The notes below the pieces were generated by a model, which saw nothing but the letters and a program-made list of their open reading frames with translations, made no database searches and had not been told where the DNA came from. Shown here piece after piece: positions 402 to 11,240 of a stretch of DNA of 11,240 nt (position 1 is the first letter of the stretch; every line of letters begins with the position of its first letter). This stretch comes from Candidatus Fermentibacterota bacterium (GTDB lineage: Bacteria > JAFGKV01). Both the position numbers and the translations under genes were made by a program. The stretch is taken from NCBI GenBank assembly GCA_030620115.1, contig JAUXFG010000128.1, positions 1 to 11,240 on the forward strand. Direction: 5' to 3'.

Positions 402-459
402 GCGCAAAATGGAATAGTCTAGTAAATCTATAGATTTACTAGACTATTCCATTTTGCGC
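402..459. repeat. Perfect 58-bp palindrome with no spacer
   Basis: The 29 bases at 402-430 are exactly the reverse complement of the 29 bases at 431-459. The arm begins GCGCAAAATGGAATAGTC and the centre is AAATCTATAGATTT. A further 7-bp pair, CGCGAAC (385-391) and GTTCGCG (474-480), lies outside it. No T-tract follows, so it does not look like an ordinary terminator, and no gene uses it in an obvious way. It could be a mobile-element end-to-end junction, a recombination or protein-binding site, or an assembly fold-back. Confidence 0.9.
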
Positions 460-4828: not shown

Positions 4829-5045
4829 ATCCCCCTCTATCCCCACCCAGATTCTTCGGTCGCTTTGCTCCCTCAGAATGACACACATTCCCACATACTT
4901 TTGCACATGAGCACTGTCATTCTGAGCGACTCCAAGGAGCGAAGAATCTCTCCTTGCTCCTCGTTCTGTCATCTGAACGCTTCCCTCTCCCCCCCATTCC
5001 GCCAGATTACAGATTCGAGATTGTCAGATTCTACATTCTTCCCCC
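4829..5045 (+). repeat. Palindromic dispersed repeat, element A
   Basis: This element fills the purM-purSL gap. Its core is an imperfect inverted repeat with 35-bp arms: 4849-4883, starting AGATTCTTCGG, and 4915-4949, ending GCGAAGAATCT, with a 31-nt loop. After it come one TGAACGC heptad (4974-4980), a C-rich stretch and a run of AGATT-type units (5004-5038). The same order occurs in reverse complement at 10932-11185 (element B). Over the 101-nt core I count about 90 identical positions without gaps, and most differences are in the loop. If purM and purSL are cotranscribed, the RNA would fold into a long hairpin here. Confidence 0.85.
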
Positions 5046-9308: not shown

Positions 9309-10931
9309 GTGAACACAGAGATGGGACGACTGACGATCAAGCGCGCGCTCTTGAGTGTCTCGAACAAGACGGGGATCGAACAGTTGGCCCTAGCGCTCAA
9401 GTCTTTTGGATGCGAGATCATCTCCACGGGGGGCACGAGGCAGGTATTGGAGCAGATAGGCATGGAGATCACGGATGTGGGTTCGGTTACCGGTAATCCG
9501 GAAGCATTCGGGGGACGGATGAAAACCATATCCTTCCCCCTGGAATCGGCTCTGCTCTATGATCGAACCAGAAATGCCGAGGAGGCAAGACGACTTGGCA
9601 TCGCTCCCATCGACATGGTAGTCTGCAACTTCTACCCATTTGCTGAGGTCAGAAATGACGCCAACCTGGACACGCTAGTGGAACATATCGACATCGGCGG
9701 TCCCACCATGGTTCGCGCAGGCGCCAAGAACTCCCGTTTTGTCGCAGTGCTCACCGACCCCGCGGACTATCCAAAGATCATTCAAGAGCTTCGGGATCAT
9801 GGAGGCAAGCTCTCTCTGGAGACCAGGGAGCGGTTGATGAGGAAAGCCTTCTCCGTTGTGGCGGATTATGATGCCATGATAGCCGTCACATTAGGACGCC
9901 TTGCCGGGGAAGAGACTGTGAGGCTGTCCTTCACTGAGGGGCGGGAGCTCAGATACGGGGAGAATACGCATCAGAGTGCCGTTTTCCTGAGGCAATCGCC
10001 TCGCGAAGCCTCGTTGCACGACCTCGAGCTTCTGCACGGGAAAGCGCTCTCATTCAACAATCTTGTGGACATGCAGGCCGCAACGGAAGCGGTTCGAGAC
10101 CTGTCGAGCACGGGCTGCGCCATCATCAAGCACACCAATCCTTGCGGGCTCTCCCAGGGCGGGAGCCAGCGAGAGGTGTTCGAGCATGCCTGGGCGGGAG
10201 ATCCCATCTCGGCGTTCGGGTCGGTCATCGCATTCAATCGCACGGTGAGGCGAGACACGGTTGAGTTTCTCCAGTTGAATCACCCCCGGAAGCGCGAGAG
10301 GAAGTTCGTGGAAGTGGTGATCGCGCCCGGATTCGAACCCGAGGCGGAGGAATATCTGGCCTTGCACAAGAACCTGAGGGTGGTGGTGTTCGACCCGAAG
10401 ATCATGGTTCCCCAGAGAGACTACAAGTTCCTGTTGGGTTCCCTGCTGGTGCAGGATACGGATCAGAAGGTGTGGGAGAAAAGGGAGATCGTGACCGAGG
10501 CCAAGGGAGAGGTCGACGAGGAGCTCCTGGAGTTCGGGATCATTGTCGTGCGGCAGCTCAAATCAAATGCCATCGCCGTGGTGCGCAGGCTGCCTGAGGG
10601 CGCCCTGCAGCTACTTGGCATGGGTTGTGGTCAACCGAACCGGCTGGTGGCCGTGGAGCTGGCCATGAAGAAGTGCCTCGAGAATCTGCGAAGAGAGTAT
10701 CACGGCCCAGAGGGGGGACTCAAGGGTTTCATCACCGGGGAGATGGGGCGTGCCGTGCTGGTGTCGGATGCATTCCTCCCGTTTCCCGATAATGTGGATG
10801 CATGTGCGGATCTTGGGATTCGTACCATTGTGCAGCCCGGGGGCTCGATTCGAGACAAGGCGGTGATCGCCAGATGCAATGAAAAGGGAGTCGCCATGAT
10901 CCTTACCGGGATTCGGCATTTCAGGCATTAG
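9309..10931 (+). CDS. purH: AICAR transformylase/IMP cyclohydrolase, bifunctional
   Basis: PurH formylates AICAR with 10-formyl-tetrahydrofolate and closes FAICAR to IMP. The product is 540 residues from GTG 9309, or 536 from ATG 9321, close to E. coli PurH (529). Numbered from 9309, the N-terminal cyclohydrolase domain (~1-200) has KRALLSVSNKTGI (11-23), STGGT (39-43), RMKTISF (70-76) and GGPTMVRAGAKN (130-141). The transformylase domain has RYGENTHQ (215-222), LSFNNLVD (247-254), the catalytic KHTNPCG pair Lys274-His275, GQPNRL (441-446), SDAFLPFPD (486-494) and the C-terminal GIRHFRH. The usual RVKTLHP reads RMKTISF; the active-site Lys is kept but the LHP is lost. I chose GTG 9309 because AGAGGTGG lies just upstream; ATG 9321 aligns equally well. 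The gene stands alone between repeat clusters, and its own promoter is uncertain. Confidence 0.94.
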   Translation: MNTEMGRLTIKRALLSVSNKTGIEQLALALKSFGCEIISTGGTRQVLEQIGMEITDVGSVTGNPEAFGGRMKTISFPLESALLYDRTRNAEEARRLGIAPIDMVVCNFYPFAEVRNDANLDTLVEHIDIGGPTMVRAGAKNSRFVAVLTDPADYPKIIQELRDHGGKLSLETRERLMRKAFSVVADYDAMIAVTLGRLAGEETVRLSFTEGRELRYGENTHQSAVFLRQSPREASLHDLELLHGKALSFNNLVDMQAATEAVRDLSSTGCAIIKHTNPCGLSQGGSQREVFEHAWAGDPISAFGSVIAFNRTVRRDTVEFLQLNHPRKRERKFVEVVIAPGFEPEAEEYLALHKNLRVVVFDPKIMVPQRDYKFLLGSLLVQDTDQKVWEKREIVTEAKGEVDEELLEFGIIVVRQLKSNAIAVVRRLPEGALQLLGMGCGQPNRLVAVELAMKKCLENLRREYHGPEGGLKGFITGEMGRAVLVSDAFLPFPDNVDACADLGIRTIVQPGGSIRDKAVIARCNEKGVAMILTGIRHFRH

Positions 10932-11185
10932 GGGGGGGAAGAATGTGGAATCTGACAATCTAGAATCTGTCAATCTGGGGGAAGGGGGGAATGACAAGAA
11001 GAGAGCGTTCAGCGTTCAGCGTTCAGCGTTCAGCGTTCAGATGACGGAGGAAGAATGGAGGAGAGATTCTTCGCTCCTTGGAGTCGCTCAGAATGACAGT
11101 GGTAGTGTGCAGAAGTATGTCGCACTACGTGTCATTCTGAGGGAGCAGAGCGACCGAAGAATCCGGGTGGGGAAGGGAGAAGGAA
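10932..11185 (-). repeat. Palindromic dispersed repeat, element B (inverted copy of A)
   Basis: Read on the - strand, this matches element A (4829-5045) in order: a hairpin core, then TGAACGC heptads, a C-rich stretch and AGATT-type units next to the purH end. The core arms are 11064-11098 and 11130-11164, 35 bp each, around a 31-nt loop that has its own GTAGTG/CACTAC stem. The main differences from A are the loop and five heptads instead of one. Confidence 0.85.
11005..11039 (+). repeat. Tandem heptad GCGTTCA x5
   Basis: There are five perfect, contiguous copies of the 7-mer GCGTTCA. A second tract with three copies lies at 11186-11206, and element A has a single copy (4974-4980, other strand), so copy number varies between elements. 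Seven is not a multiple of three, so it is not a coding repeat. Confidence 0.95.
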
Positions 11186-11240
11186 GCGTTCAGCGTTCAG
11201 CGTTCAGATGACGGAGGAAGGATGTAGGAGAGATTCTTCG
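11186..11240 (-). repeat. Start of a second tandem unit of element B, cut by the window edge
   Basis: Three GCGTTCA heptads (11186-11206) are followed by GATGACGGAGGAAG and GGAGAGATTCTTCG, repeating the order seen at 11005-11073. AGATTCTTCG at 11231-11240 lies exactly 167 nt after the one at 11064-11073. The element therefore starts again, and a tandem array probably continues beyond the window. Confidence 0.8.

Follow-up and report, generated by a model that had tools for sequence, protein, structure and literature searches.

The palindromic elements of Rickettsia and MITE-like repeats are short, dispersed sequences of ∼100–150 bp that form hairpins. In REP elements, one end of the stem bears an unpaired, conserved tag, GTAG or CGTC (PMC3733652). 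The GTAG type is associated with a RAYT (REP-associated tyrosine transposase) gene that is flanked by two inverted copies of the repeat (PMC2817692), and the CGTC type occurs without a dedicated transposase (PMC3733652). Template switching between inverted arms is likewise a described mechanism (PMC8794818).

The window analyzed here is the whole stretch of 11,240 nucleotides that constitutes contig C265 of a draft genome (4.1 Mb in 296 contigs). Direct comparison confirmed the exact, spacerless 58-bp palindrome that the preliminary description had placed at 402–459, with arms 402–430 and 431–459 as perfect reverse complements that meet at a central AAATCTATAGATTT. By chance, a perfect palindrome with 29-bp arms is expected at ∼3e-11 sites in the whole genome. 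The predicted fold of the palindrome strand is much more stable than that of shuffled sequences, as either RNA or DNA (z ∼ −11). A further 7-bp inverted pair reported outside the arms (CGCGAAC at 385–391 and GTTCGCG at 474–480) does exist, but is probably incidental to the palindrome because 474–480 falls in the end of another dispersed repeat. That repeat, at 470–688, is an unrelated MITE-like sequence with imperfect inverted ends (GGGTTCGCGCAAGAATA and GGGTTCGTCCAGGAACA); the genome holds ∼40 or more partial copies of it, including one next to the palindrome. The palindrome does not end a recognized gene; the next gene is guaB (start ∼1001), followed downstream by the rest of a purine operon (guaB-purA-purM-like-purL-purQ-purH). 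Other dispersed repeats, AGATTCTTCG...CAGAATGACA, lie in inverted orientation at 4840–4981 and 11032–11240 and flank purL-purQ-purH. A search of Rfam with the window and nine loci returned no family match at E values up to 0.5. The features of the palindrome are as follows; none is assigned a strand.

402–459, unstranded: perfect spacerless 58-bp palindrome (repeat search and direct comparison)
412–449, unstranded: 38-bp unit of the dispersed repeat family; its subtype in the window is GAATAGTC...GACTATTC (within-copy pairing stops at position 19 from the center, 66 copies)
419–442, unstranded: conserved 24-bp palindromic tip CTAGTAAATCTATAGATTTACTAG (61 copies with at most two mismatches from CTAGTAAATCYATRGATTTACTAG, none in the reversed control)
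429–432, unstranded: central TATA, the predicted loop (center genotypes and predicted fold)
412–418, unstranded: left side of the lower covarying stem, GAATAGT (pairing at positions 13–19, 0.83 versus 0.66 shuffled)
443–449, unstranded: right side of the lower covarying stem, ACTATTC (same pairing test)
402–411, unstranded: extra left arm special to the window copy, a putative template-switch copy of 450–459 (sibling comparison)
450–459, unstranded: extra right arm, resembling the right flank of sibling copies (sibling comparison)

When the arm was searched in the rest of the genome, as had been suggested, it proved to be a repeated element and not a single site. Allowing up to two mismatches, the 24-bp core CTAGTAAATCYATRGATTTACTAG occurs 61 times in the whole 4.1-Mb genome; the family has ∼65 copies in all, with a consensus repeat unit of TAAATCTCTAGTAAATCCA^TGGATTTACTAGAGATTTA. 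A reversed-pattern control of the core gave no match in the same genome, and the core itself is absent from 59 other genomes, including two of the same family. Among the named genomes, a single copy was found outside, on a contig filed under a Lentisphaerales genome (L064, JAUXFM010000130.1). This contig has 75 other repeat matches in common with the window genome and is probably a mis-binned relative. The core palindromes had no match in viral contigs; two exact viral matches to the 18-base arm are lone, non-palindromic arms and were taken as chance. In a 242-kb sample read along with the window, palindromes with arms of at least 15 belong mostly to this family.

Every copy read is intergenic, given small overlaps of predicted gene ends, and the apparent intragenic copies are weak chance matches; these assignments, like the orientation counts below, rest on uncurated gene calls from a simple codon model. 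Each of the three forward frames of the repeat unit contains stop codons, and because the unit is palindromic the same holds for all six frames. The copies are single, the sole close pair lying 1.3 kb apart (C137:4971 and 6268), and no REP-type clusters, dimers, or BIME arrays were found for the window-genome family.

The arms of individual copies vary together. At positions 13–19 from the center, pairing within a copy is 0.83, compared with 0.66 when right arms are shuffled among copies (z = 8.8; 66 copies, including two probable chance matches). Beyond position 19 the same copies show no average excess of pairing, and the unit is therefore 38 bp long. Stem pair counts, from a set of 32 rows chosen for intact arms, agree with the covariation. 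The family falls into symmetric subtypes, namely AAATCTC/GAGATTT, AATAGTC/GACTATT, AATACTC/GAGTATT, and AAAAGTC/GACTTTT. Position 2 is without complementarity in the window genome (0.48 versus 0.62), as in a free loop. The center reads CCATGG in 32 copies, CCATAG in 18, CTATGG in 13, and CTATAG in the window copy only; a C-to-T change at an unpaired loop base would be expected for an extruded hairpin. Four loci (L061, L072, L073, and L095) have unlike arms in which two subtypes are joined, and all four have a mismatched core. Going by these loci, matched arms seem to be kept only where the core can fold.

Some copies are embedded in larger decayed repeats, which allows the palindrome to be compared with its flanks. 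Independent pairs of copies with homologous flanks have 38 mismatches in the palindrome, compared with 95 expected at the flank rate; without the chimeric copy L089, 11 independent pairs remain, with 23 mismatches against ∼83 expected. Many of these differences fall on the loop position or the edges, or are double changes that preserve the symmetry. In L089 (∼1940–1985) and L068 (∼2056–2100), single palindrome arms are fused to another hairpin, GAGCCACTTGCAAAACC...GGTTTTGCAAGTGGCTC, giving chimeras of two hairpin repeats. Late insertion of the palindrome into older repeats is not favored, because flank class A is found only beside a palindrome (with the exception of one truncated copy); an empty A|B junction was not seen either. 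Flank class C proved to be an unrelated MITE lying directly against the edge of the palindrome. A MITE of ∼100–130 bp with ends GTAACTTCTCAATAAGTCCG (L154, 7495–7623; L147, 17633–17733; L092, 1876–1974) adjoins the edge in at least five copies, as if this were a preferred insertion site.

A 176-kb sample of a genome from the sister genus (G001) contained another palindrome. Its core, ACTATTCTAA-NN-TTAGAATAGT, occurs 70 times in G001 and 67 times in a second species (G002), and never in the window genome or in the controls; conversely, the window-genome core is absent from the sister genus. Hairpin families turn over between genera. The architecture of the sister family is much the same. Its tip is nearly invariant, position 1 lacks complementarity (free loop), and positions 12–15 vary by copy yet pair at 0.54 versus 0.34 (z = 6.7). 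At least four extra complementary stem pairs are present in 21 of 74 copies, with a maximum of 11 (1.85 copies expected). Stems are longer in copies whose tip is perfect, and ∼40% of copies are without an extra stem pair beside the tip.

The two species of the sister genus also allow single sites to be followed. At the clearest orthologous site (L249/L202), which has the same two genes on either side, the tip is identical at 22 of 22 bases in a region that is otherwise ∼67% identical. The stems read CGCCAGGGGG/CCCCCTGGCG in one species and ATCCGGGC/GCCCGGAT in the other; five of eight pairs differ, each changed on both sides. At this one locus, the only clean orthologous pair, the element was seen to have stayed in place while its stem was rebuilt. 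In a second orthologous intergenic region (L248/L214) the tip is kept and the stem is poor, and in a third (L242/L210) the palindrome is present at a different distance from the gene. For the G002 copy L195/L177, no counterpart was found after the orthologous G001 gene. Between the two genera, there are four cases in which the same gene is followed by the genus-specific palindrome in both, a count that is only suggestive, as it has no proper null.

Another 10 pairs past position 19 are found in just two copies, the window copy and L039. In L039, the start of flank B found in other copies, TTCCAACGCC, is replaced by GCGGACAACGCC, which duplicates the A flank of the same copy, GCGGACAACG; this is the signature of template switching between inverted arms. 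The arms of the window copy were probably lengthened from 19 to 29 bp in the same manner, since its right flank resembles that of siblings L002, L004, and L009 and its left arm does not.

Taken together, these results mark the palindrome of the window as a genuine element that the genome maintains, as opposed to an error of assembly. The explanation that we favor, with moderate confidence, is a dispersed, REP-like extragenic hairpin element that consists of a conserved palindromic tip on a variable but matched stem. Each copy would comprise such a tip (24 bp with a 4-nt loop in the window family), below which the stem would be free to change in sequence as long as both sides match. The element would act as a hairpin, either extruded from DNA or formed in RNA when transcribed, and a factor of the host or of a mobile element, different in each genus, would recognize its tip. 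The original spread may have followed the route proposed for REP-type repeats, in which single-strand hairpins are moved in trans. Replicational template switching together with selection could then keep the stem complementary, and one such switch probably stretched the arms of the window copy from 19 to 29 bp. Several observations speak against this explanation: a cognate transposase or binding protein was not found, the window-genome copies are not significantly biased toward convergent genes, ∼40% of sister copies are without the extra stem pair, and of the orthologous sites one is clean whereas L195/L177 has no counterpart. More speculatively, the two families may represent a class of short hairpins whose tip is invariant and whose stem is private to each copy, in which the tip was inserted exactly at the center of pre-existing inverted repeats or the stem was rebuilt locally after insertion, and in which the whole tip was replaced between sister genera at near-equal copy number (∼65 to 70). 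If this were true, the replacement of the whole tip would imply a co-evolving recognition factor.

Among the alternatives, a true REP element, that is, a non-autonomous repeat moved by a cognate RAYT, shares size, intergenic location, copy number, and covarying stems with the family described here, which matches the description of a 20–40-bp repeated extragenic palindrome (38-bp unit, ∼65 intergenic copies). The genome also encodes four Y1_Tnp genes, one of them ∼230 bp from a copy (C241:40107). However, neither a GTAG nor a CGTC tag is conserved outside the stem, judging by base frequencies past position 19 in the window family and past position 11 in the sister family. None of the four Y1_Tnp genes is bracketed by inverted copies, the copies are single and unclustered, and the Y1 gene on C241 is a frameshifted pseudogene within its own terminal repeats. 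We consider a true REP element unlikely. The frameshifted gene (L146, ∼9980–10900) has a terminal inverted repeat on either side (AGGGGACGTTG...CAACGTCCCCT), an arrangement resembling the TIRtrons of PMC3733652.

Equally doubtful is an RNA 3′-end hairpin, a bidirectional terminator or mRNA stabilizer kept for its effect on transcripts. The predicted RNA fold is indeed very stable (z = −10.9), the orthologous copy lies ∼30 bp past a stop codon, and the regions between convergent genes hold more sister copies than expected (15 of 56 versus 11% of intergenic bases; P = 8e-4), an enrichment that weakly suggests an RNA role in the sister genus only; the corresponding figure for the window genome (10 of 45 versus 14%; P = 0.09) is not significant. 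Yet 14 of 45 window-genome copies lie between divergent genes, there are just ∼65 copies per ∼4 Mb, and termination does not need a sequence-specific AT-rich tip. The absence of a T-tract after 402–459, noted in the preliminary description, holds as well: the palindrome has no terminator-like site with a T-run, and no recognized gene of the window ends there.

A role as an operator, with a dimeric protein binding the duplex form of the DNA, would account for the perfect dyad symmetry, the invariant core, and the dozens of intergenic copies. Such an operator does not require copy-specific matched stems outside the core, yet the sister family has its 21 copies with four or more extra pairs (1.9 expected), and positions 13–19 covary in the window family, which leaves an operator improbable. 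Still less probable is a MITE made of terminal inverted repeats without an interior. The family is dispersed, lineage-specific, and at times found inside larger decayed repeats, but at boundaries 14 to 23 bp from the center we found no target-site duplication, that is, no excess of direct repeats above the level of the internal sequence of the family. No longer element with the same ends is present, and sister-family stems differ from copy to copy. A longer transposon ended by the arms was rejected, solo arms being rare and no element with such ends having been found. The duplex operator, the MITE, and the intrinsic terminator each fall short of an expectation that was tested.

The preliminary description had left the palindrome as under selection, recent, or an assembly fold-back. 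Palindromes do disturb assembly, since six or more copies are found no farther than 150 bp from the start of a contig, compared with 1.4 expected near any contig end, but a fold-back is effectively excluded by the ∼65 copies with differing flanks on many contigs (dozens of them inside contigs) plus one on L064, by the symmetric subtypes, and by two further genomes with a palindrome family of their own. Selection or active maintenance is supported by a core conserved far above its flanks and by covarying arms. Draft genomes can therefore contain genuine palindromes that are perfect, spacerless, and 58 bp long. With two families in one small clade, two questions become testable: how a repeat of this kind comes to change its recognition sequence, and whether its arms are kept perfect by template switching or by selection.

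The favored hairpin element can be compared with three known systems. In quasipalindrome correction (PMC8794818, PMC7202029), one event makes both arms perfectly complementary, as in L039 and probably in the window copy; however, this is a mutational mechanism and not an element, and it leaves the dispersal and the invariant tip unexplained.

Rickettsia palindromic elements and MITE-like repeats are larger, and the window element has no target duplication or terminal repeat around it. REPs, REPINs, and BIMEs are closest, as intergenic palindromes of 20–40 bp with tens to hundreds of copies, families limited to a species or genus, and complementary stem changes. The family described here differs from them in that it is perfect, spacerless, and unclustered, with an AT-rich conserved tip and a variable stem, and with neither a tetranucleotide tag nor a bracketed RAYT found. 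Because these last two are missing, we do not file it as a REP, although it may work like one. The layout of a conserved tip on a variable but matched stem is opposite to that of REPs with a tag and a partner transposase, and constitutes the unusual part of this family.
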